Source: Gillisia limnaea DSM 15749
Lineage (GTDB): Bacteria; Bacteroidota; Bacteroidia; Flavobacteriales; Flavobacteriaceae
Assembly (NCBI RefSeq): GCF_000243235.1
Contig: NZ_JH594606.1
Span: 786,934 to 850,933, forward strand
Reading direction: 5' to 3'
DNA length: 64,000 nucleotides
Shown: piece after piece, positions 26,368-41,441 of the stretch
Layout of the letters: each line of letters begins with the position of its first letter
How positions within the stretch are numbered: the stretch's first letter is position 1
The notes under the pieces: model-generated
Database searches by the model: none
The model's input: the letters and a program-made list of their open reading frames with translations, nothing else
Told to the model about the DNA's origin: nothing
Position numbers and translations under genes: made by a program

Positions 26368-26880
26368 ATGGCGATTAAAAAAGATGACACCTCAGCGGGT
26401 ACCAAGATGTATAACCCAAAGAAAAGCATTCAACGAGCAAGGGGAAGTAAGGCTGGAAGGCCGACGTGGCGCATAAAAGTTACCGAAGAGGAATATGTTT
26501 GGGCTACTAAGATGGATCGGGTAACTATTATTAGAAAAGGACTTCCTTATGAGTCTATTGAAGTTATAAGCCAAAGAGCCGGTTTACCTATAAGACATGT
26601 TTTAAGCTTATTTGGCATCCCGCAAACTACTTATAACAAGAAAAAGAGGGACAAAGATCTACTTAGTGGAAGAGACAGTGAAGTGGTACTGGTGCTTACG
26701 GAGTTACTGGATTTCGGGTTAGAGGTATTCAATAATGAAGCGGAAAAATTTCAACGTTGGCTAAAAAAACCTAATATTTCGTTAGGGAGCGCTACTCCGG
26801 AAAACCTGTTTGATTCGTTAACGGGGATTCAGGAGGTTAGAAACAGCCTCAATAGACTGGAATACGGAAATCTGGCTTAA
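26368..26880 (+). CDS. Xre/MbcA/ParS-type antitoxin
   Basis: 170 residues. The middle region (EEYVWATKMDRVTIIRKGLP through SQRAGLPIRHVLSLFGIPQT) is the Xre-like HTH of the ParS/MbcA antitoxins. The C-terminal part (VLTELLDFGLEVFNNEAEKF QRWLKKPN... then PENLFDSLTGIQEV) is the DUF2384 toxin-binding region. It should neutralise the RES toxin and repress the operon. It overlaps the toxin gene by 1 bp (TAATG). A TATATTTA near 26344 may be the promoter. Confidence 0.92.
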   Translation: MAIKKDDTSAGTKMYNPKKSIQRARGSKAGRPTWRIKVTEEEYVWATKMDRVTIIRKGLPYESIEVISQRAGLPIRHVLSLFGIPQTTYNKKKRDKDLLSGRDSEVVLVLTELLDFGLEVFNNEAEKFQRWLKKPNISLGSATPENLFDSLTGIQEVRNSLNRLEYGNLA

Positions 26881-27347
26881 TGAGGGTATATAGAATTGAA
26901 AGGGAAAAATACCTGGACACCACTTTAAAAGGAATTGGAGCCGCATTAATGGAAGGTTTTCGCTGGAATAGTCTCAACACCTATTTGGTTTACACTTCAG
27001 AATCCCGTGCACTTGCAACTTTAGAAGTAGGGGTTCATTTAGACCTCAGTGAAGATTTACCTACTGATAGATTTTACGTGGAAATAGATATTCCCGATGA
27101 TGTGGCAATTCTTGAATTAAGAGCAGAAGACTTACCGGAAAACTGGGATGCAAAGCCTCCAATTCTTGAAACACAATTTATAGGGGATGATTTTGTTAAA
27201 GATGCTCCTGCGGCCGTCCTTAAGGTTCCAAGTTGTATTATTCCACCCGAATTCAACTACTTAATCAATCCTAATCATCCTGATGCAAAAAAAATTACTG
27301 TATTCGCTCATGGGTCGATAAATTTCGATCAAAGGTTTAAAAAGTAA
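26880..27347 (+). CDS. RES-domain NAD-targeting toxin
   Basis: 155 residues, near the usual RES length. MRVYRIEREKY gives the first conserved Arg; GAALMEGFRWNSLNTYLVYT and SESRALATLEVGVHL contain the conserved Glu/Ser region; HPDAKKITVF and FDQRF close the domain. Characterised RES toxins (ParT, MbcT) degrade or transfer NAD+. It is coupled to the antitoxin by the 1-bp overlap. The stop is followed within a few bases by period-7 repeats. Confidence 0.92.
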   Translation: MRVYRIEREKYLDTTLKGIGAALMEGFRWNSLNTYLVYTSESRALATLEVGVHLDLSEDLPTDRFYVEIDIPDDVAILELRAEDLPENWDAKPPILETQFIGDDFVKDAPAAVLKVPSCIIPPEFNYLINPNHPDAKKITVFAHGSINFDQRFKK

Positions 27348-32336: not shown

Positions 32337-32354
32337 AAGTACTCGGAGCGGGAC
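32337..32354 (+). other. attL core
   Basis: AAGTACTCGGAGCGGGAC, identical to the 3' end region of tRNA-Leu at 41424-41441. The following bases differ (AAGAAACC here, TTGAACCC in the tRNA), defining the right edge of the shared core. Confidence 0.92.
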
Positions 32355-32494
32355 AAGAAACCCCCTATTTTAACACTTTTACAACCCCCTGTAAAATCTC
32401 AATAACCTTCTGTATTTACTCACTTACCCAACAATAACAAAGCCTTACACCGTATTAAAGAAATTGAATAGAATTGAATAGTATCTTAATTTCC

Positions 32495-32515
32495 TTTGTC
32501 AAGTATTTGCCAAGT
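32495..32515 (+). promoter_or_regulatory. Putative integrase arm site, left
   Basis: TTTGTCAAGTATTTG followed by CCAAGT: two TGTCAAGT-like units 10 bp apart. The same 21 bp with one mismatch occurs near the other end at 41351-41371, in the same orientation. Paired arm-type sites are expected for a lambda-type tyrosine recombinase. TTGTCAA also recurs in the non-coding block around 40568-40590 and 40715. Confidence 0.55.
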
Positions 32516-32546
32516 CCAAAAATTAGACTACTTTAGTATTGTTCAA

Positions 32547-32591
32547 ATGTTCAATACTTCAATCTTCAAATATGGCAACGGTAAATTTTAG
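32547..32591 (+). CDS. Possible 14-residue leader peptide overlapping the integrase start
   Basis: ATG at 32547 lies within the motif ATTGTTCAAATGTTC and opens MFNTSIFKYGNGKF then TAG, in a different frame from the integrase, whose ATG is at 32572. A near-identical ATGTTC start opens a leader before rep (36185). Translation of the leader would interfere with or couple to integrase initiation. This is prediction from layout only. Confidence 0.4.
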   Translation: MFNTSIFKYGNGKF

Positions 32592-33885
32592 AATTCGCAG
32601 TAAAGCAAATAGACCTGTATCAATTTTCATTTATGTATCATTAGAAGTTGGGAATGTAATTTCTACACCCTCAGGTTTTAATGTACTCCCTAAAGATTGG
32701 AGCACTACCACAAAAAGACCTAAACAAAATTCCGAAGGCAATAAGAAAACCTTTAGTGAATTGAACAAACTTCAAAAATTCATTTATGATGAGGTTAACA
32801 CCGCACAATCAAAAGGGCAATTAATAGACGTACACTGGTTAAAGGATAAAATAGACCTTTGCTTCGACCGGGTAAATAAAACGGATCACAGCCTGTTAAT
32901 TAACCATACCCAGTACATAATTGATAATGCCAACACCCGTAAAATTACAGGCAGCAATAAAATTGGTATATCTCAACGCCGGGTAACTGGTTACAAATCT
33001 TTCAAAAAGGTAATGGAGGTTTACGAAAAGGAAACAAAAAAGAAAATCCAATTACAGGACATAAACAAACCCTTTGTTGACAAGTTTACTAACTGGTTAA
33101 TGAATAAAAAAAACTACTCCACTAATTACGCGGGTAAGATTTTGGACAACCTTAAAACCGTTTGTTTAGATGCTGAGAAATTAGATATAAAAGTTAACCC
33201 GTATGCAAAGCAAATAACAGGCTTTAGAGAGCAAAATAACGATAGGTTTATAATTACCCTATCATTTGAAGAACTGGAGCAAATACGTACTGCAGAAATA
33301 GAATCAGAAGCCTTAAAGAACGCGCGCAACTGGTTGTTATTAGGTTGTGAAATAGGACAAAGGGCAAGCGACCTTTTAAAACTTTCCCCGGACAATTTGA
33401 GGTATAAAGGCAACCGCATTTATTTTGATATTGAACAACAAAAGACAGGCAAATTTGTAACCGTTGGGGTAATTGCTCCGCACGTTATTGATATTGTAGA
33501 AAATAACTTTCCTTACCCTATCTCACAGCAAAAACTAAATAAGCATATTAAGGATGTTTGTGAACTTGCTAAAATTGAAGAAATGGTAAAAGGCAGTAAA
33601 TATGATAAAAAGACCGGGCGTAAAAAGTTAGACGTTTACCCAAAATATGATTTAATAACCTCGCATACCTTTAGAAGATCCTTTGCGACAAACTATTATA
33701 AGAAAATACCAACCGCAGTATTAATAGGGATTACAGGACATTCAAAAGAAAGTTTATTCCTGGAATACATTAACAGGCGCGAAGATAAAGACCTTAACGC
33801 GGATCTATTTATGAAGTTCTATGAAACACTACACCAGGACAAAGAACCGCAGTTAAAAGTAATTAGAAACGCATCCAATCAATAA
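32572..33885 (+). CDS. Tyrosine recombinase / integrase
   Basis: 437 residues from ATG at 32572 (MATVNFRIRSKANRPVSIFI); an in-frame TTG at 32539 would add 11 residues lacking family look. It has the Bacteroidota phage-integrase layout: N-terminal arm-binding domain, SAM-like core-binding domain (about 110-220), then a catalytic domain with Arg in CEIGQRASDLLKLSPDNL, HTFRRSFATNYYKKIPTAVL (HxxR), TGHSKESLFLEYINR (GH and Tyr nucleophile). It catalyses recombination at the tRNA-Leu 3' end. Its 5' leader shares a 15-bp motif with the rep leader. Confidence 0.96.
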   Translation: MATVNFRIRSKANRPVSIFIYVSLEVGNVISTPSGFNVLPKDWSTTTKRPKQNSEGNKKTFSELNKLQKFIYDEVNTAQSKGQLIDVHWLKDKIDLCFDRVNKTDHSLLINHTQYIIDNANTRKITGSNKIGISQRRVTGYKSFKKVMEVYEKETKKKIQLQDINKPFVDKFTNWLMNKKNYSTNYAGKILDNLKTVCLDAEKLDIKVNPYAKQITGFREQNNDRFIITLSFEELEQIRTAEIESEALKNARNWLLLGCEIGQRASDLLKLSPDNLRYKGNRIYFDIEQQKTGKFVTVGVIAPHVIDIVENNFPYPISQQKLNKHIKDVCELAKIEEMVKGSKYDKKTGRKKLDVYPKYDLITSHTFRRSFATNYYKKIPTAVLIGITGHSKESLFLEYINRREDKDLNADLFMKFYETLHQDKEPQLKVIRNASNQ

Positions 33886-33890
33886 AGAAA

Positions 33891-33995
33891 ATGACCTTAA
33901 AGGAAATAAAAATCTATTTACAGAACAGGGATAATTACACCAAAGAAGAAAGAAAAATTATCAGAGAGAAATTACTAAAATCAATAAATAACTAA
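33891..33995 (+). CDS. Micro-ORF 1, 34 residues
   Basis: Starts 5 bp after the integrase stop: MTLKEIKIYLQNRDNYTKEE then RKIIREKLLKSINN. The DNYTKEERKII segment matches DSYTIEERKKL and DSYTTEEREKL in micro-ORFs 3 and 4, so it is a shorter relative of them. Short spacing and family similarity support translation. Function unknown; a small charged helical regulator is plausible. Confidence 0.6.
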   Translation: MTLKEIKIYLQNRDNYTKEERKIIREKLLKSINN

Positions 33996-34005
33996 AAACT
34001 TAATT

Positions 34006-34155
34006 ATGAAAATTTCCCCCTTAAACCATTTAAAAAAACAGGATTACCAAAAAGAGGTTATAATTAATAATCTAATCAAAGAACGTAAGGCAAATAACCT
34101 ACCTATAACATTTAGTAGGGAAACCATAGAAACCTTTGTAAATAACCACCTTTAA
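34006..34155 (+). CDS. Micro-ORF 2, 49 residues
   Basis: MKISPLNHLKKQDYQKEVII...ITFSRETIETFVNNHL. It shares the MKISP/MRISP start with micro-ORFs 3 and 4 but a different body. The DNA encoding its tail (FSRETIE) has a degenerate echo after micro-ORF 3 (34327-34350, encoding FNRETIR), so a unit of micro-ORF 2 plus 3 seems to have been duplicated and partly lost. Function unknown. Confidence 0.6.
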   Translation: MKISPLNHLKKQDYQKEVIINNLIKERKANNLPITFSRETIETFVNNHL

Positions 34156-34169
34156 TTTAAATAACAAAT

Positions 34170-34310
34170 ATGAGAATTTCCCCCGATTCACCAACAATGA
34201 AACTTTACCAGGAGTTTACCACCTTTAATTTTTACTGGGATAGTTACACCATAGAGGAAAGGAAAAAATTAAATAAAGACTTTATGCAGAAATTATATGA
34301 ATTAGGTTAA
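34170..34310 (+). CDS. Micro-ORF 3, 46 residues
   Basis: MRISPDSPTMKLYQEFTTFN then FYWDSYTIEERKKLNKDFMQ and KLYELG. It is about 60 percent identical by eye to micro-ORF 4, with the same length and stop context (TTAGGTTAACCAA). Conservation of the two copies at protein level argues for function. No known family recognised. Confidence 0.68.
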   Translation: MRISPDSPTMKLYQEFTTFNFYWDSYTIEERKKLNKDFMQKLYELG

Positions 34311-34379
34311 CCAAATACATACCCTTCAACAGGGAAACTATTAGAAAACTCCTTAAATACCAACCTTAAAATAACAATT

Positions 34380-34520
34380 ATGAAAATTTCCCCCGACTTA
34401 TCAATAGATAAACTTTACCAGGAGTACGCAACTTTCAAATATTATTGGGATAGTTACACTACTGAAGAGAGAGAAAAGTTACTTAAAGACTTCAAACAAA
34501 GGCTTTATCACTTAGGTTAA
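34380..34520 (+). CDS. Micro-ORF 4, 46 residues
   Basis: MKISPDLSIDKLYQEYATFK then YYWDSYTTEEREKLLKDFKQ and RLYHLG. It is a paralogue of micro-ORF 3; differences include conservative changes (F/Y, N/K, K/E), as expected for a protein under selection. It ends 11 bp before a hairpin terminator, closing the integrase-micro-ORF unit. Confidence 0.68.
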   Translation: MKISPDLSIDKLYQEYATFKYYWDSYTTEEREKLLKDFKQRLYHLG

Positions 34521-34531
34521 CCAACTCCACA

Positions 34532-34558
34532 CCCTTTGCACCTCAGCAAGGGGTTTTT
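34532..34558 (+). terminator. Terminator after the integrase/micro-ORF unit
   Basis: Stem CCCTTTGC / GCAAGGGG (8 bp with one G-T pair), 6-nt loop, then TTTTT. It separates the integrase and micro-ORFs from the 258-residue gene, which starts 38 bp later. Confidence 0.85.
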
Positions 34559-34595
34559 AGTATATTAGCAACGGCAACGAATTAAACCTGTTCAA

Positions 34596-35372
34596 ATGGA
34601 AAATAAATCTGAAGACTTAATACCAGTACTTGATTTAGAAAAAATCAAAGCAAACAATTATAAAAATTTAGATTGTCTACACCCCTATTATAGAAAACAT
34701 CTTTTACTCCGCTTAGCATATTCTTTAGATTTACCTCTTTATACTCGTTATAGCACCTTTGAAGGGAAAAGTTCTGAGTTTATAAAGGAAATTGAAATTG
34801 TAGACCCTATAGAACGGAAAGAGGTTTACAGAATTGGAATGGCAATGATGACATTTATGGATTCCCAGTACAAAGAACCTATAAAAATTCCAACGGTACA
34901 TAGATTATTATATACAGAAGGTTTAAAATTTATAGAGGTTGTACCTACATTGTCAAGAAAAATAAAAGTTTTAAAGGCGTTAATAGAGCATGTCTATATC
35001 AAAGAAACAAAAAATACTTTTCATAAGAATGTTTTTGAAGATGTTAGGTTGAATCTTGTTGTCAAACTTGAATCCTTTGAAAAATTACTTTCACTTCAAA
35101 ATAAAAAGCAGGAGAAAGAAAAAACAAACGATTTACCTTACAAAATAGCACTATTAAAAGAAATAGGCTTTTTTGATTTACCATTACTTAAAAACTTAAC
35201 TGGCAATAAAAAAAGAGAAGTAGTTGCTCAGTTAATTGGGGGTACAGATAGGCAAATTAAAGGGAATATTAATGTTCTCAACCCTCAAAGTATGGATGAC
35301 AGAACAAGATACACCTCTTTTACTTATGAAGATGAGGTAAAAAGATTTGTTTCCCGTTTATTCAATACATAG
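34596..35372 (+). CDS. Unknown 258-residue element protein
   Basis: Not recognised. It begins MENKSEDLIPVLDLEKIKAN, has a mid part LHPYYRKHLLLRLAYSLDLP, and a C-terminal region (ALLKEIGFFDLPLLKNLTGN ... VAQLIGGTDRQIKGNINVLN) that resembles the C-terminal helical segment common in Bacteroidota mobile-element regulatory proteins. Soluble, basic-to-neutral, no signal. The ATG lies inside TGTTCAAATG, the same motif found in the int and rep leaders, suggesting shared post-transcriptional or transcriptional control. Confidence 0.7.
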   Translation: MENKSEDLIPVLDLEKIKANNYKNLDCLHPYYRKHLLLRLAYSLDLPLYTRYSTFEGKSSEFIKEIEIVDPIERKEVYRIGMAMMTFMDSQYKEPIKIPTVHRLLYTEGLKFIEVVPTLSRKIKVLKALIEHVYIKETKNTFHKNVFEDVRLNLVVKLESFEKLLSLQNKKQEKEKTNDLPYKIALLKEIGFFDLPLLKNLTGNKKREVVAQLIGGTDRQIKGNINVLNPQSMDDRTRYTSFTYEDEVKRFVSRLFNT

Positions 35373-35440
35373 GGCGTATAAACAGGCGCACGCCCCACCT
35401 TCAAACGCATTGATATTTGTTGAAATTAAAACTTTCAGCA

Positions 35441-35716
35441 ATGAGCAACGTAACACAACTACACAACGCAACCCCGGAGCAAATAACAGATGCTATCCTA
35501 CAAGGGGTTAAAGAGCAATTAGATCAACTTAAAAAGGAATACCAACCCAAAGAGCCGGAGGAATATCTTTCACGTGCTGAGGTTGCTAAATTGCTTAAAG
35601 TCGATATTTCAACAATACACAATTGGGGCAAAGCCGGAAAACTTCAAAGATTTGCTTTAGGGAACAGGATTTATTTTAAGCGTTCTCAAGTCGAAAGTGC
35701 AATAATTCAACTTTAA
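35441..35716 (+). CDS. MerR/HTH_17-type DNA-binding protein, excisionase-like
   Basis: 91 residues from ATG at 35441; an upstream TTG at 35417 is less likely. After an N-terminal helix (ATPEQITDAILQGVKEQLDQ) comes the HTH_17 domain: YLSRAEVAKLLKVDISTIHN then WGKAGKLQRFALGNRIYFKR. This is the common excisionase-like protein of Bacteroidota integrative elements, which bends DNA at att sites or regulates transcription. It lies 11 bp before the next gene. Confidence 0.88.
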   Translation: MSNVTQLHNATPEQITDAILQGVKEQLDQLKKEYQPKEPEEYLSRAEVAKLLKVDISTIHNWGKAGKLQRFALGNRIYFKRSQVESAIIQL

Positions 35717-35727
35717 TCTTCTGAATT

Positions 35728-36114
35728 ATGGCAACGATACCAACACCCACCGTTCACAGTTATATAGAAATTAACCATGGTAAATTTGCAGAGGTTAAAC
35801 ACTACGAACTCAAAGAGGTTACCAACGGCAACCCGATTTTATCCAACCTAATAAACGTAAGTAAAAACCGCAATTTTGCAAGATCAAACCCGGATTACTG
35901 GTTAAAAATTAGAGAAGGTAAGAAATGGATCAACCCGGCATTAACTGGTTTATTTAAAACCTCCACCCCTTTAATTTATTACGGAGATCACAACGACAAA
36001 AAGAATCTTATAATAGTTAGATTTTCTGCAAATGCAGAGGAAGTTATAATCTATTACTTTAAAGATTACTATACCCGCGATTTAAAGCCTTTAATAGGCG
36101 CAACCGTTAGATAA
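35728..36114 (+). CDS. Unknown 128-residue element protein
   Basis: Not recognised. MATIPTPTVHSYIEINHGKF, then NPILSNLINVSKNRNFARSN and LTGLFKTSTPLIYYGDHNDK; the end (LIIVRFSANAEEVIIYYFKD) alternates like beta strands. No signal or membrane segment. It is probably in one operon with the HTH gene 11 bp upstream. A small DNA-binding or accessory replication role is possible from position before rep. Confidence 0.65.
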   Translation: MATIPTPTVHSYIEINHGKFAEVKHYELKEVTNGNPILSNLINVSKNRNFARSNPDYWLKIREGKKWINPALTGLFKTSTPLIYYGDHNDKKNLIIVRFSANAEEVIIYYFKDYYTRDLKPLIGATVR

Positions 36115-36145
36115 CAACACCCTAAGCATACCTAAGTATTAAAAC

Positions 36146-36212
36146 AAAAAAAGAGGGGCGTTCAACCCCCTCTAAATTGTTCAAATGTTCGGGAATACGG
36201 CAACGCATACCC
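36146..36212 (-). ncRNA. Predicted antisense RNA of the rep leader (about 65 nt)
   Basis: The minus strand has a perfect TATATTTG box (36219-36226) and, about 50 bp further on, a perfect intrinsic terminator: stem AGAGGGG / CCCCTCT (36152-36158 with 36167-36173) followed by seven Ts. All annotated genes in the element are on the plus strand, so a minus-only terminator needs an antisense transcript. The RNA would cover the start codon of the leader peptide before rep, as copy-control RNAs do (CopA of plasmid R1 is the classic case). It carries GAACATTTGAACAAT, complementary to 15 nt of the int leader. No TTG -33 element is obvious. Confidence 0.55.
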
Positions 36213-36235
36213 ACAACTCAAATATAAGAAATTAA
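36185..36235 (+). CDS. Possible 16-residue rep leader peptide
   Basis: ATG at 36185, inside ATTGTTCAAATGTTC, opens MFGNTATHTHNSNIRN and ends with TAA directly abutting, and in frame with, the TTG at which the Rep frame begins. This suggests translational coupling by termination-reinitiation (or read-through of the TAA). The antisense RNA predicted here would pair over the leader start. Confidence 0.45.
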   Translation: MFGNTATHTHNSNIRN

Positions 36236-37345
36236 TTGGTTGACTTCGTAAAATTACTAATCAAAGATTATGACCCCCTAAAATTAGAGGGTAATAGGTA
36301 TTTAGATTTTTACGATAATATAAACTTGGAAACTGGAGAGATTAAAACCATTAATAAAAAAGGTAAAAGGGTAACTCCACACAAACAAGCCTATTATAAA
36401 GACCTGGACTTTAGGATATATGAAACAGGTACTATAACAATAGCAGGTAGTTTACATAAGTACTACAATGCAGGAGGTCACAATTATAACGATTTTGATT
36501 TTAACGCATTTTTAGGGGTTTTAAAGGACTTACAAAAGAAATTCAACTTAGACCTAAACAAATGTATTTTAAGGCAATTAGAGGTAGGTATAAACGTTGT
36601 GCCACCTAAACCAACTAATGAGATACTGGAATATAGTTTTTTACACAAAACAACCCCTTTTGAATTTAAATACAATTCAGATGAGGGAAAGTATTTACAG
36701 GCAAAACATAGCCAGTACATTATTAAATTTTACAATAAATACCTGCATTACAAAAAAGCCTTTTTAGTTGAAACCGAAATAATGCGTTTTGAAATTAAGT
36801 ACACTAAAATGAAAAAGGTAAATGCAAAAGGAATATTCACCTTACAGGATTTAGCCGACAAAGGTTTGTATTTGTTCAAAGAAGATCTTTTACAGGAATG
36901 GAATAACGTTTTGTTTTATGACTGTACAATTAACCATAAAAGTAAGGTTTTAGACAATTACAATAACCCTATATACTGGAATAGGCAACTTCAAAAGAAA
37001 AGCCATTCAGCCTATTATAAACACCGCAGAAAGTTATCCGAATTAACCGCAAATCATTCTGAAAACCTTCAGGAACAAATAAGAAATATAATGAGTGAAA
37101 AGGTTGACTTTTTAAATGGCAGGGGTACACGTTTTGACAGTTTATATATAGGGTCAATTCCTGTACCCCCACTTCAAGAAATTACAGCCAAAATAAACAA
37201 CGTTTGTCAGGTTACCAGTCTGAATATTTCAATGCAAAGGGATGACAGTTTTTTACTATCCCACACAGGATTAAACTACTATTACAAAACAGATAAAAAG
37301 ATATTTGAGGAAGTGAAAAGAAAGTATCTTTCAAAGACTTGGTAA
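36236..37345 (+). CDS. Rep-like replication initiator
   Basis: 369 residues from TTG at 36236; no in-frame ATG exists near the start, so initiation probably depends on the leader. Motifs such as LNKCILRQLEVGINVVPPKP, IIKFYNKYLHYK and VETEIMRFEIKYTKMKKV resemble replication initiators of small phages and plasmids (the gpII/CRI-like group seen in Bacteroidota elements). A nicking or origin-binding role in the cytoplasm is expected. The family assignment is by eye and the catalytic Tyr/HUH cannot be placed firmly. A 320-bp gap follows. Confidence 0.6.
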   Translation: MVDFVKLLIKDYDPLKLEGNRYLDFYDNINLETGEIKTINKKGKRVTPHKQAYYKDLDFRIYETGTITIAGSLHKYYNAGGHNYNDFDFNAFLGVLKDLQKKFNLDLNKCILRQLEVGINVVPPKPTNEILEYSFLHKTTPFEFKYNSDEGKYLQAKHSQYIIKFYNKYLHYKKAFLVETEIMRFEIKYTKMKKVNAKGIFTLQDLADKGLYLFKEDLLQEWNNVLFYDCTINHKSKVLDNYNNPIYWNRQLQKKSHSAYYKHRRKLSELTANHSENLQEQIRNIMSEKVDFLNGRGTRFDSLYIGSIPVPPLQEITAKINNVCQVTSLNISMQRDDSFLLSHTGLNYYYKTDKKIFEEVKRKYLSKTW

Positions 37346-37664
37346 AAGGCAGATCACAAAACCCAGATAAAACAAATTGCTAAGAATATTAGGCATACCA
37401 GAACCAACAGACAAAACAAGCAGGAAAGATTATACCCACCCGGGCAACCTTTATTATTTGACTTAGCAGTTTAGAAATTAAACCATTTTACATAAGCCTA
37501 ACCGTTACATTCATTGTTAACAAATGCTAACATTCAAAATTATGTGTCTGAACTCATAACCGTTGCATTCAATTATTTCAAAACAATAATCATTAATAAT
37601 CTTTTTTAATTATGGCACACGTTTTTAAAACTAAAATAATAACAACTAACTAAAACTTAAAACT
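37346..37664. other. 320-bp leader region of the 733-residue gene
   Basis: AT-rich, no gene above 30 residues. Features seen: an imperfect inverted repeat ATTGTTAACAAATGCTAACAT near 37516-37536 and a 13-residue frame MAHVFKTKIITTN from ATG at 37612, ending just before the 37665 gene. The spacing suggests a regulated 5' region. No TAnnTTTG box was found. Confidence 0.4.
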
Positions 37665-39866
37665 ATGTTTAATAACAGGCGCAAATACTCCCTTAGTTCA
37701 CCACTTGGAAAAATAGATTTAAAAATGGATCCTATGGGGTGGGATAAAACAGAAACCGAAATAGGCAGAAGCGAAAAAACATACGGGATCTTCTTAACGG
37801 TTTCCAATAACTTAGAATTTACAGGGAAGGCAAAGGAGTTTTTAGAACTTAACTGGAATACTTTTGGCGTACAGGCAGAGGTTACTCTAATCAAATGGGA
37901 AAAGCATCCAATTAGTGATGAGTGGTTGTTATCCTATACAGGGGAATTAGATTTTTCTACCAGAGAGGTAAAGGATAATAAATTTAAAATAGATGCAATA
38001 GAGGGAGGTTTAAGAGAGGTTTTCACTTCTCAATTAAAAGAAAAATATGAGTTAAACCGAAAAGAAGATATTAACGGTGAGCCTATAACCCCTCTTTCAC
38101 CTTCCCAAATAACCATCGCAGGCAGGGAAATATACCTATTAAGCCGATTTGTAGAGCGAGATTCGCAGTTCACTACAAAAAGCGGGCGATGGAGTTCAAT
38201 AAATGAAGATAGAGAATCCTTTCATCCATTCCCGGTAAACCCAATAGCAAATTCAGATACTTTAAACATCACACCCCCGTATGAAAGTTATAAAGCGGAG
38301 GAAAGATGGGATGATAAAAGCACCATTAATATGTTTTTTGCTATCGCAGACAGGGATAGAGGTATAACAAAATTCAAAGGTTCAGCATCCTTTAAAGTGA
38401 GCAGCCGGGATGTGAGTAGGGTAAACGAATACAATTTTAAATTTGTGGTTTTCAGTTTTACAAGCGATGAAGATGGATCTAACTTAACAAGAGATTTAAC
38501 GCCTGTTTTTCAGCAAAATCTTGGAGGTTTACCCGCTGTGGGATCTGAATTTACAGTAACCTTGCCAGAGATAACACTAGAGCCTAAGAAGAACGAAAGT
38601 TATGCAATGGGGCTTTATTCTGTAGGTCAATACGGTGGACCTATCCAGCCCCCAACATTTGACGGGTGGGCAAATATAACTTTTTCAGACTTCAAAGCCA
38701 GTTTCACTTGGGCTGAGGATTCATTTTATCAAAGAACAAATTCTAAGTTTCTTACTGCTTATGAAGTAGGTAAAAGATTAATTGAGATATACACCGGAAA
38801 ACCAAAATTCATTAGTAGTACTTTACAAAAGGATGAATACCCGGCTTTGGGTTTTTCTTGTGGAGGTTGGATAAGGAACCTTCAGAAAGTAGATGAGGAA
38901 GATAATATCATAGAATGGCCGTTAACCCTTTCCTTTGAGGACTATTTTAGGAGCATAGATGCAATAGAACCAGTTGCCTATGGTATCGTGACTAAAGGAG
39001 CAAAGCAATTTGTTAGACTAGAGAAAAGAAGGTTTTTCTTTCAGCCTTATATTACTATTAGATTAGGTCTAGGATCCAAATACATAAGAACAACGGCTGG
39101 AGATTTCATCTACTCATCTTTCACTACAGGCTATACTCAGGGAGGGAATTATGAAAAACCCCTTGGATTAGATGAACCAAATATTCAAACAACATTCATT
39201 TCCCCAATAACCAAAACGGATAATAAATATGAGGCACTAGGCACAAGCCGGGCAGATAGTTATGCCGTTGAGGATGCCAGGAGGATGCAGTATGAGAATT
39301 TCCCCGATGAAGATACACCCTACGACAAAGATAATTTTTTGTTAGATGCTAAGTTTAGAACCCGATCCAACCTAAAAGACTATTATGACTTGAGGTTATG
39401 GCAGGATGACTTTGAGCAGGTGCCGACAGGAATATATTCCCCGGAAACAGCCTTTAATTTACGCCTTAGTCCTGCTAATAACCGTAACAGGCACGCGTAC
39501 TGGTTTAATTGTGGTTTAATGAATGACCCAACTAAAAAAATAAGATATGCCAGCAGCGAAGGGAATAGCGAGTTAAAAACAAAATTGCCAGGGAAACCAG
39601 AAGTAAAAGAAAATGAAGACGTTATAATACAGGATCTTTCAAACCCTATTTTTTCCCCTGACTGGATAGAATTTGAATATCCCCGCAATCAGGAATTAAT
39701 CGACCTTTTACAAAGCACCACTGAGATAAACGGAGAGGAAATAAACAACTATTACGGCTTAGTAGAGTTCATAAATGAGAATGGGAACAAAGAGAGAGGA
39801 TATATCTTTGATGTGAAAATTAAAAATGTAATTTCCTTTAAACTTTTAAAGAGTTACGGGTTTTAA
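37665..39866 (+). CDS. Large phage-tail-like or unknown cargo protein, 733 residues
   Basis: The N-terminus (LSSPLGKIDLKMDPMGWDKT then SEKTYGIFLTVSNNLEFTGK) recalls structural proteins of Bacteroidota phages, which open with a similar G-W/N-W-D-x-x-E ... R-S/D-E-K pattern and a NLEF/LxF-G-x-G/A-x-E/K-F/L region. The rest shows many beta-strand-like stretches, no signal peptide and no membrane segment. No other virion gene is present, so a lone structural protein is odd: it may be a hijacking or adaptor protein of a satellite, or a defence/effector cargo. Largest gene of the element. Confidence 0.5.
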   Translation: MFNNRRKYSLSSPLGKIDLKMDPMGWDKTETEIGRSEKTYGIFLTVSNNLEFTGKAKEFLELNWNTFGVQAEVTLIKWEKHPISDEWLLSYTGELDFSTREVKDNKFKIDAIEGGLREVFTSQLKEKYELNRKEDINGEPITPLSPSQITIAGREIYLLSRFVERDSQFTTKSGRWSSINEDRESFHPFPVNPIANSDTLNITPPYESYKAEERWDDKSTINMFFAIADRDRGITKFKGSASFKVSSRDVSRVNEYNFKFVVFSFTSDEDGSNLTRDLTPVFQQNLGGLPAVGSEFTVTLPEITLEPKKNESYAMGLYSVGQYGGPIQPPTFDGWANITFSDFKASFTWAEDSFYQRTNSKFLTAYEVGKRLIEIYTGKPKFISSTLQKDEYPALGFSCGGWIRNLQKVDEEDNIIEWPLTLSFEDYFRSIDAIEPVAYGIVTKGAKQFVRLEKRRFFFQPYITIRLGLGSKYIRTTAGDFIYSSFTTGYTQGGNYEKPLGLDEPNIQTTFISPITKTDNKYEALGTSRADSYAVEDARRMQYENFPDEDTPYDKDNFLLDAKFRTRSNLKDYYDLRLWQDDFEQVPTGIYSPETAFNLRLSPANNRNRHAYWFNCGLMNDPTKKIRYASSEGNSELKTKLPGKPEVKENEDVIIQDLSNPIFSPDWIEFEYPRNQELIDLLQSTTEINGEEINNYYGLVEFINENGNKERGYIFDVKIKNVISFKLLKSYGF

Positions 39867-40309
39867 ATAATCAATTCTTTATTTGTTTTAATCAAACGTT
39901 TTTCAAGTGATTAGGTTACATTTTCCGACCAATACGCGCGCGCGCATGAGGAAGAGTTCTCTTACATAGTAAAAAAGGGCAGAATCGGAGCAATACGCGC
40001 GCGCATGAGGAGCCAATCAAATGATTGTTATTCGAACACTAAAAAAGGAAGACTTTGTAACGGTCAAAAATCTAAAAAAAGTTTATCGAAGACTTTACGC
40101 GCGTATGAATAATTATAAATCGTTTATTTTAAAGACTTTTTGGGAATCATTACGCGTGAGTAAAATCTAAGTTTTTAACACGATAAAAAAGAATAGGATT
40201 ACAACAAGATTACAACAGGGATTATTAAAAGGTCAACCCTAAGGTTACCCAAAGGATTGATAAATGATTTAATGCGTATTTAAACCGATAATAACGGTAA
40301 GAATACGGT

Positions 40310-40359
40310 AAGGACTAACCTAAGATTACCTAAGTTTTAACGGTCGATAAACGGTCGAA
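40310..40359 (+). repeat. 50-bp direct repeat, copy 1
   Basis: Perfectly repeated at 40620-40669. It contains GGACTAACCTAAGATTACC and the double motif ACGGTCGATAAACGGTCGA. The exact identity across 50 bp in otherwise diverged non-coding DNA implies constraint or recent duplication. Confidence 0.93.
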
Positions 40360-40619
40360 AAGATGTAGATTTTATAACGTTCTAACACGCGCACTTGGAA
40401 CGATTGAAAATTAATAAAAGATAAACCTTTAAGTGACCATTACCCGCGCGTGAAACATCTATAAATTAAATAGGTGAAGTTTTTTGGGGTCTATACGCGC
40501 GGGAGTAGGTTACTGATTTTAGGACTAATATACCCTAAGGTATAACAGCCGGGAAACAGCGATAGAACTTGTCAAAACTTGTCAAGGTTTAGTCAAGGGT
40601 ATAACGGCAAGATTACGGC

Positions 40620-40669
40620 AAGGACTAACCTAAGATTACCTAAGTTTTAACGGTCGATAAACGGTCGAA
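40620..40669 (+). repeat. 50-bp direct repeat, copy 2
   Basis: Second copy of 40310-40359, 310 bp away in the same orientation. It is followed at 40687 by GAAACAGCGATA and ACTTGTCAAAACTTG, which also occur at about 40552. Confidence 0.93.
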
Positions 40670-40872
40670 TAACAGTTGAGAAACAGCGATAAAACAGTGA
40701 TAGGACTTGTCAAAACTTGATATTCAAAATTGATTATTCAAGTTTAATTAATTAAAAGTTTTTTATTTCTTAACCTGTATGTAAGGAACTGGACGAATTG
40801 AACTACCTAAAAGAATTTAGTAACCGATAATTACGGTTAATAACGGTAAGGTTGCGGTAATTTGTTTTTTCA

Positions 40873-40880
40873 TATATTTG
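40873..40880 (+). promoter_or_regulatory. TATATTTG promoter box of the lipoprotein gene
   Basis: Perfect TAnnTTTG box 31 bp before the ATG at 40912, followed by a short leader ending in CACAAATG. It gives the last gene of the element its own transcription unit. Confidence 0.65.
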
Positions 40881-40911
40881 GGTTTAACCTCCCTACACTA
40901 AAAAACCACAA

Positions 40912-41184
40912 ATGAAAAAGATCCTTTTATTACTATTTTTAACCGTTATGTCCTGTTCTACTGAAGATGAATCGGAAAACCAGGCATTGTGTTGCGGCAC
41001 TCCTATTGCAGAAATCATAGAAAGTTATCATAAAATGTACGGTGAAGTTCTTGAAAATGGAACTTTTACAGAAGCAAGGAGAAGGGAAATTATAGCAGAA
41101 TATAATGATAGGATAGAAAACCCCTGCGAAAGCCATATAAGATCCCTGGAAAATGCCGGGGCATCGTGTGAGAATCCTAATTAA
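40912..41184 (+). CDS. Small Cys-containing lipoprotein, element cargo
   Basis: 90 residues. MKKILLLLFLTVMSCSTEDE is a lipoprotein signal with lipobox VMSC; the mature part has four more cysteines (ALCCGTPIAE, NPCESH, GASCENPN), giving possible disulfides in the envelope. No family recognised. It has its own promoter and terminator next to attR, the usual place for accessory genes such as superinfection-exclusion lipoproteins; that role is inference. Confidence 0.82.
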   Translation: MKKILLLLFLTVMSCSTEDESENQALCCGTPIAEIIESYHKMYGEVLENGTFTEARRREIIAEYNDRIENPCESHIRSLENAGASCENPN

Positions 41185-41207
41185 TTACGAATAACACTAC
41201 TATTTAG

Positions 41208-41231
41208 CCACTTCTAGCGAGGTGGTTTTTT
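41208..41231 (+). terminator. Terminator of the lipoprotein gene
   Basis: Stem CCACTTC / GAGGTGG with loop TAGC, followed by seven Ts. It lies 24 bp past the stop codon. Confidence 0.9.
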
Positions 41232-41350
41232 TGCTTTAGAACAATTAATTAATCTTTTATTAATTATTGAAACTATGCCAGGAGCAAAAAGTAGTAAATA
41301 ATTAGAATTCTTATTTAGAATGATTATAAACAAGCGTGAAACTCATTTTA

Positions 41351-41371
41351 TTTGTCAAGTATTTGTCAAGT
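41351..41371 (+). promoter_or_regulatory. Putative integrase arm site, right
   Basis: TTTGTCAAGTATTTG followed by TCAAGT, matching 32495-32515 with one mismatch and in the same orientation. It lies 53 bp from the attR core. Confidence 0.55.
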
Positions 41372-41381
41372 AAGCATAAAA

Positions 41382-41421
41382 AAACCTGTAAAGCCTTATA
41401 AATAAAGCATATACAGGTTTT
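41382..41421 (-). terminator. Element-supplied terminator for the tRNA operon
   Basis: On the minus strand, AAAACCTGTA / TACAGGTTTTTTT forms a hairpin with a long AT-rich loop right after the tRNA-Leu 3' end, ending in a T-run. It sits inside the element next to attR and replaces the original terminator now left at 32304-32335. Confidence 0.85.
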
Positions 41422-41423
41422 CT

Positions 41424-41441
41424 AAGTACTCGGAGCGGGAC
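41424..41441 (+). other. attR core
   Basis: AAGTACTCGGAGCGGGAC, the 3' end of tRNA-Leu (minus strand) plus 3 flanking bases. Identical to attL at 32337-32354. Insertion keeps the tRNA intact. Confidence 0.92.

Follow-up and report, generated by a model that had tools for sequence, protein, structure and literature searches.

In plasmid R1, an antisense RNA directed at the initiator leader operates in the CopA-tap-repA system. The CI RNA of satellite P4 and the c4 RNA of phage P1, both processed from the sense leader, silence their own element or prophage by pairing with the leader of their own operon. To our knowledge, most of the regulatory RNAs described for mobile elements come from Proteobacteria and Firmicutes. 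Plasmids offer well-established cases of initiators under antisense control (PMC5703833). In the account given in that review, pMV158/pLS1 (Rep_2) carries a 48-nt RNAII transcribed from a promoter inside the 5' end of the initiator gene (copG-repB), the RNAI of pT181 (87 nt) is antisense to the rep leader, and the RNAI of pSK41 (RepA_N; ~83 nt) is made of two stem-loops and a single-stranded spacer (PMC5703833). In Bacteroides, the FopS small RNAs are described as multi-copy, with a seed that is conserved and left unpaired and with an intrinsic terminator; their sequence was also seen in a phage, and polysaccharide transporters are reported as targets (PMC11697453). Our literature search returned nothing on point for RNAs of this sort from elements of Flavobacteriaceae or plasmids of Bacteroidota, nor for antisense control of an integrase mRNA.

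Here, we describe a locus in a 64-kb window, by which we mean the whole stretch of DNA analysed, whose minus strand carries a predicted antisense small RNA of ~67 nt (36146..36212) opposite the leader of rep, a gene for a Rep_trans-like rolling-circle initiator or relaxase with a TTG start (36236..37345, plus strand). The RNA gene, its conserved structure, its place and a set of covarying complementary sites, nearly absent where the RNA is absent, were computed from the window and its relatives. Judged on these sequences, it is fairly likely that one and the same RNA acts as an antisense to rep and pairs in trans with the integrase and operon mRNAs, thereby keeping the element quiet.

The element in question spans 9.1 kb (32337-41441) and is bounded by 18-bp repeats, the left copy (AAGTACTCGGAGCGGGAC) at 32337..32354 and the right copy at 41424..41441, at the 3' end of a tRNA-Leu. 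On its plus strand lie a tyrosine integrase gene with an ATG start (32572..33885), small frames, a 258-aa gene (34596..35372), an HTH_17 or excisionase-like regulator gene upstream of rep (35417..35716), a 128-aa gene between the regulator gene and the RNA (35728..36114), rep itself, and a gene for a 733-aa protein homologous to a structural virion protein of flavobacterial siphophages (37665..39866), with homologues in 31 phage records, all below 60% identity. Gene ends similar to that of the 128-aa gene (YYFKDYYT-like) precede several other RNA-bearing reps. Altogether, the element resembles either a phage satellite or an integrative plasmid. The small elements each carry a single tail or virion gene, the siphophage structural homologue in the window and a tape-measure protein gene in L085 (832-3210), and no other virion gene was noticed near either of them; by analogy, such a gene might serve as in a satellite that alters the tail of its helper. 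Elsewhere in the window, at 26368-27347, lie two adjacent small genes that we take to resemble a toxin-antitoxin pair of the Xre/MbcA-RES type.

Among the plasmid systems, pMV158 offers a parallel in layout: as for RNAII in its published description, the predicted antisense promoter overlaps the 5' end of the initiator gene, and, as there, a gene for a DNA-binding regulator lies upstream in the operon of a putative rolling-circle initiator. Unlike the 48-nt RNAII as it is described, the RNA predicted here has two conserved hairpins, belongs to an integrated element and faces a Rep_trans-like initiator. The complementary sites in the integrase leader and in the second gene, the 258-aa gene, likewise set the locus apart from pMV158 as the review presents it.

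The signals that delimit the RNA had been pointed out in a first-pass annotation made from the window alone, and both are where it placed them: the promoter -7 box TATATTTG (36219..36226, minus strand, read from 36226 to 36219), which we take to be the Bacteroidota-type TAnnTTTG element, and an intrinsic terminator (36146..36173, minus strand) composed of the stem AGAGGGG/CCCCTCT at 36173-36152 and seven T at 36152-36146. With the 5' end set ~7 nt past the box and the 3' end placed in the T run, the RNA comprises a 5' hairpin with the conserved loop UUGC(C) (36191..36212), an unpaired linker UUUGAACAA (36177..36185; consensus of 31 aligned sequences), which is a candidate seed, and the terminator hairpin, all on the minus strand. 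Among 31 aligned boxes, selected by a model that itself includes the box, positions 1-2 are T/A in 31/31, positions 5 and 6 are T in 30/31, position 7 is T in 29/31 and position 8 is G in 24/31, and the 31 sequences share no conserved -33 element upstream of it. The box alone is weak evidence, since TAnnTTTG occurs 40 times per strand in the 64-kb window; a sigma-70 scan gave matches no more numerous than those in shuffles. As the box lies 9 nt ahead of the rep start codon, the upstream part of the promoter falls in the first rep codons, and the RNA gene as a whole stretches from a promoter overlapping the start of the initiator gene to a terminator just beyond the upstream gene. About 24 nt separate the RNA from the rep start, and it is therefore not obvious that the RNA could block rep initiation directly.

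The case for an RNA is carried by its conservation. A covariance model, R1, built solely from three relatives (L001, L002 and L004), recovers positions 36226-36146 of the window on the minus strand with 52.3 bits (E 2.9e-9), which places the combination of signals far beyond chance; it also matches nine further loci at the same place with E < 2e-4 (L009, L003, L047, L035, L006, L024, L008, L026 and L022). The expectation that close relatives keeping rep would also keep box and terminator held in the main. Seven of the nine close relatives with the rep start in view match R1 at E <1e-4 and the other two (L005, L007) do so weakly, while the exact box is present in five of the nine. All nine carry on the plus strand, between the upstream gene and rep, an A-run and a hairpin whose stem sequences differ, and therefore a minus-strand terminator. 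In the structural alignment of 31 sequences, 93.0% of the cells are paired (62.4% when shuffled), double, compensatory changes occur at 16/16 modelled pairs, the terminator included, where the stem sequence varies and the pairing is kept, and covariation amounts to 0.775 against 0.227±0.020 in shuffled and at most 0.180 in slid alignments; the alignment was fitted to the structure and favours it, a bias that is answered in part by the R1 matches and by both kinds of control, slid and shuffled. Its G-U cells (35) far exceed its A-C cells (6), compared with 66 and 40 in the shuffles, and such an inequality would be expected if the minus strand folds as RNA. The energy of the 5' hairpin alone does not tell the strands apart (z -1.54 for minus and -0.93 for plus; minus lower in 20/31). 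Taken together, an antisense RNA gene opposite the initiator leader, as proposed in the first-pass annotation, is strongly supported by conservation and covariation, that is, by sequence evidence.

The origins used by rolling-circle initiators are hairpins, frequently located close to rep, and it could be argued that the hairpins seen here are DNA structures, such as a double-strand origin nicked by the initiator, and that no RNA is involved. Hairpin origins are indeed usual for initiators of this kind, yet the promoter box and T run are conserved on one strand, the G-U excess belongs to the minus strand, and in L085 the same module faces a phage initiator of another, non-rolling-circle type, so we regard this explanation as very unlikely and retain that of an RNA. 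The RNA is absent from Rfam 15: over window positions 35900-36500 the best match overlapping it was isrP (15.9 bits against a gathering score of 45, E 1.8), and at gathering score none overlapped it in 13 loci. As a side observation, a Flavo-1 RNA (RF01705) is found on the same contig as the L009 RNA (L009 11101-11177). Like FopS as described, the RNA predicted here would be a Bacteroidota small RNA that combines an intrinsic terminator with a seed kept unpaired and conserved; unlike FopS, it has a 5' hairpin, which the consensus published for FopS lacks (PMC11697453).

The first-pass annotation had gone further, proposing that the antisense RNA blocks a leader peptide translationally coupled to rep, by the logic of plasmid R1. 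The leader frame exists: MFGNTATHTHNSNIRN (36185..36235, plus strand) starts with an ATG at 36185, and its TAA at 36233-36235 abuts, in frame, the TTG of rep at 36236; a similar frame is found in L022. As with CopA of R1 (IncFII), moreover, sequence and covariation place the predicted RNA gene opposite the initiator leader. Nevertheless, these two are the only ones of the 21 RNA-bearing rep loci with an abutting in-frame leader, and several close relatives have no ATG at that position, so that, unlike tap-repA of R1, the locus has no conserved leader peptide. The comparison of relatives suggested with that proposal thus gave a divided answer, the terminator stem covarying as predicted and the leader frame not being conserved. 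Sequence comparison suggests that the frame is most likely there by chance, and probably not functional, and we consider an R1-type circuit extremely unlikely. Copy control of the plasmid type would be at best part of the role of this RNA, because its unpaired conserved segments match the integrase and second-gene mRNAs.

That the gene facing the RNA deserves the name rep, which it had been given from the outset, is supported by the fold and the residues of its product. The window protein belongs to no Pfam or NCBIfam family, and its best PHROG (E 0.055) is unconvincing; Pfam searches with 47 members of the rep family hit nine families, each by 1/47 and none of them a Rep family, and the curated Pfam model does not assign the window protein to Rep_trans. 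An AlphaFold2 model from 47 relatives (pLDDT 89, pTM 0.81) gave a VIA fold match to 4cwe with Z 12.0 (rmsd 4.1, 230 residues aligned; best unrelated fold Z 6.2), and Foldseek ranked 4cij first, with inovirus G2P second among viral models. E116, K164-Y166-K168 and R184-E186 are invariant in 47/47, D3 is kept in 45/47, and G118 and N120 in 46/47. In RepDE, the corresponding description lists D46, D142-A144-D146, R189-Y191-K193 and R212-E214, and the conserved residues of rep match these in order and in near spacing (PMC4797284). Fold and catalytic residues together therefore indicate that rep is probably a rolling-circle initiator or a relaxase of the Rep_trans fold. As in pT181, a Rep_trans-type initiator with matching catalytic residues (PMC4797284) would thus stand under a predicted antisense RNA; unlike that of pT181, this initiator has no Pfam match, and a simple scan of the plus strand in window positions 35400-37800 found no sense-leader terminator of the pT181 style before rep. 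The TTG start is common to the nine close relatives, but ATG is the start codon of several distant reps that carry the RNA. Some integrative elements use related relaxases, and by analogy a role of rep in mobilisation is possible. Searches of phage and plasmid records found no relative of rep, and a search of IMG/VR with rep gave none. The rep family, observed in 35/397 genomes of the bacterial family, has no Pfam or NCBIfam entry (for PHROGs, the window protein only was compared).

The sequence conserved in the RNA is its linker UUUGAACAA and its loop UUGCC. Since a cis-antisense RNA needs no conserved sequence, the integrase may be the reason for this conservation. The integrase leader contains TTGTTCAAATGTTC (32539..32552, plus strand), an exact complement of the linker region of the RNA, which sits just before ATGGCAACG and of which the 3.97-Mb genome has only one other copy, that of the rep leader; in addition, GGCAACG at 32574-32580, in the integrase start, is complementary to the RNA loop. 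The sense motif GTTCAA lies within 45 nt of the integrase start in 24/26 leaders accompanied by the RNA versus 1/16 leaders without it (Fisher 2e-8). After one start correction (L026) the former count becomes 25/26, the last leader (L035) having one mismatch. Five of the 16 leaders without the RNA have doubtful starts, and the single occurrence among the other 11 (L346) comes with a weak match to model R2 (28.6 bits, E 0.01) whose fold is unconvincing.

RNAs and integrase leaders also fit each other locus by locus. Across 25 cognate pairs, the duplex energy is -13.95 kcal/mol, compared with -11.64±0.41 kcal/mol when the pairs are permuted (0 of 20,000 permutations), and the Watson-Crick helix is 10.24 versus 9.06±0.29 (p 2e-4); with close relatives thinned to 20 pairs, both measures gave 0 of 20,000. 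Leaders without the RNA pair weakly, scoring -5.9 against the RNAs (16 leaders), compared with -11.5 for RNA-bearing leaders against foreign RNAs (25 leaders; p 2e-7). The cognate target ranked 13th or lower among the 25 for L009, L055, L022, L024 and L088. This comparison left out L026 (start misassigned), L047 (no integrase found), L005, L007 and L048 (weak RNA), L057, L060, L089 and L090 (no integrase in view) and L059 (integrase found late). In several loci both partners share odd letters: GAACGAU goes with AUCGUUC in L062, AUAUUUGAACAA goes with UUGUUCAAAUAU in L092, and in L003 both have one U less. Pairing of the loop with the integrase start was not significant in permutations (p 0.08 and 0.15 with 25 pairs; 0.06 and 0.17 with 20 pairs). 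A search of 22 genomes for the pattern promoter-TGTTCAAA-ATGGC found 19 matches in 13 of them, and none when the pattern was read backwards; six of these matches are leaders of integrases already read, and the 13 others, once translated, gave six integrase-like frames of 431-452 aa and seven short frames only. The integrase leaders of the window (32539-32571), L001, L009 and L005 are built of tandem ~8-nt units ending in TTCAA, four of them in the window and five in L001.

In part of the loci, further complementary motifs are found at the start of a second gene. GTTCAA together with GGCAA occurs at such a start in 12/26 RNA-bearing loci and in 0/23 others (Fisher 1e-4); a thirteenth start was also found, in L001, at an ATG that lies upstream within the integrase frame, and the 12 loci hold without it. 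In the window, the 258-aa gene has GGCAACG at 34573-34579 and GTTCAA at 34590-34595. In 12/12 loci the second gene follows the integrase gene and shares its strand, and it precedes rep wherever rep was marked. The order of the two motifs is collinear with the RNA in 5/12 and reversed in 7/12, the window included, and with the order reversed one RNA cannot fill both motifs as one collinear duplex.

These matches bear on whether the RNA acts on the rep leader alone, as a cis-antisense copy control to which the similar integrase leader would be unrelated. The position of the RNA opposite initiator leaders, the Rep_trans-like initiator and a build of two stem-loops joined by a spacer, which pSK41 RNAI shares (PMC5703833), would all fit such a control. 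Yet the single-stranded regions of pSK41 RNAI are described as dispensable (PMC5703833), and here the spacer is the most conserved part; the integrase leaders co-vary with the RNA, and RNA copies are found facing other genes or none. We therefore think it unlikely that the RNA works in cis only.

The main rival to pairing in trans is a DNA operator, with TTTGAACAA/TTGTTCAAA as the site of an element-encoded regulator such as the HTH protein, bound at the int promoter, at the start of the second gene and inside the RNA gene. The near-palindrome TTTGAACAAA, the tandem 8-nt repeats, the closeness of the sites to TAnnTTTG promoters in int leaders and the HTH gene in the same gene row are what one would look for in that case, and a protein site would give co-varying sites as well. 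Against it, the orientation is nearly fixed (sense GTTCAA 24 versus TTGAAC 1 of 26 int leaders), the site lies between two RNA hairpins that are themselves kept by compensatory change, the loop motif GGCAA accompanies the site at the second gene, and the 8-nt spacing is not helical. Orientation, the place between hairpins and the second motif argue against an operator, not decisively, and we give it a low probability, comparable to that of an action in cis only.

On the reading we prefer, that of an RNA pairing in trans, the minus strand would encode a two-hairpin RNA of ~67 nt that is by position a perfect antisense to the rep leader and would lower synthesis of the initiator. The linker UUUGAACAA, and probably also the loop UUGCC, would pair in trans with the integrase leader and with the start of the second gene between integrase and rep. 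We infer that the RNA is transcribed, that it pairs with these targets in the cell and that it represses rather than activates them, silencing being the simplest circuit. Repression of initiator, integrase and second gene would then be the most likely outcome, leaving the integrated element quiet, and excision and integration would be coupled to replication through shared repression. Should the level of the RNA drop, as might happen when a helper phage infects, the three genes could rise together; after replication the dose of RNA would rise and shut them again, and copy number after excision would be limited because this dose follows that of the element. Like the CI RNA of P4 and the c4 RNA, it would be a small RNA that keeps an integrating element silent by base pairing; unlike them, it is antisense, with its own promoter box and terminator on the opposite strand, and it also matches the integrase. 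Such a biological role would explain in concrete terms how integration is linked to replication in these elements, and the predicted trans targets are testable by single compensatory mutations. The RNA would form a conserved small RNA family of Bacteroidota mobile elements, useful also as a marker for finding them.

The RNA extends beyond this element. Searches with R2 found 14 matches at E <=2.5e-5 in 397 genomes of the family, 12 genomes at 1e-3 among 395 of the order and 6 genomes at 1e-3 among 345 of the phylum, the three draws overlapping, and the matches outside the order look like chance. As R2 E-values are optimistic (E up to 0.1 gave 187/397, far above expectation), the matches used are those with E of about 1e-4 or lower, or those in the expected gene neighbourhood; candidates L063-L066 and L094-L097 were set aside as apparent chance matches by their context, and L067-L078 entered the rep search only. 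Out of 50 rep loci, 21 carry the RNA, three a weak form and 26 none, counts that do not give a frequency, as six of the 21 (L062, L086, L087, L088, L091 and L093) came via the RNA search. The gap before rep measures 89-135 nt in 14/21 loci with the RNA and at most 20 nt in 20/26 without it. On a tree of 47 reps, presence of the RNA requires 11 changes, and it therefore appears to come and go as a cassette. In four further elements, L082-L085, the rep model does not recognise the gene that faces the RNA; that of L085 is a phage replication initiator (phrog_19658, E 9.7e-23), and that of L083 weakly matches one. Other copies face no initiator (L057, L060, L090 and the phage contig L283), or have no integrase in the stretch read, lying beside tmRNA (L057, L060), beside prs (L090) or near a contig end (L089).

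It is tempting to extend this to a portable cassette: a master RNA for silencing and immunity in a large and so far undescribed group of satellite-like elements, shutting initiator, integrase and early gene, working with unrelated initiators and, as solo copies, protecting the host or the resident element. We regard this wider proposal as possible and rather doubtful. If true, the group would comprise tRNA-integrating, satellite-like elements of Flavobacteriales plus some phages, and solo chromosomal copies by tRNA or tmRNA attachment sites would protect against incoming relatives. In the one genus tested (that of G292), the solo copy was present in 1/5 genomes and is thus no conserved chromosomal gene there. 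L059 was dropped as a solo copy, an integrase-like frame with the same leader lying 10.4 kb away. Separately, we observed no integrase near the copies at L079 9505-9584, L081 9226-9306 and L090 1501-1584, which may be remnants or immunity loci; two of the three lie ~120-190 nt downstream of tmRNA, on its strand.

Viral contigs of IMG/VR were sampled by pattern, giving at least 240 loci, 220 of which were scanned with R2. Among the matches listed, L272 and L283 are the only convincing ones, and L177, L211 and L216 match weakly (28.0 to 32.1 bits). On the 6.9-kb contig L272, the RNA lies upstream of the integrase. In the siphophage contig L283 (873-950), with no rep in view, it sits between a tape-measure-like gene and a presumably protease-like one, where it could be the phage's own RNA or a decoy.
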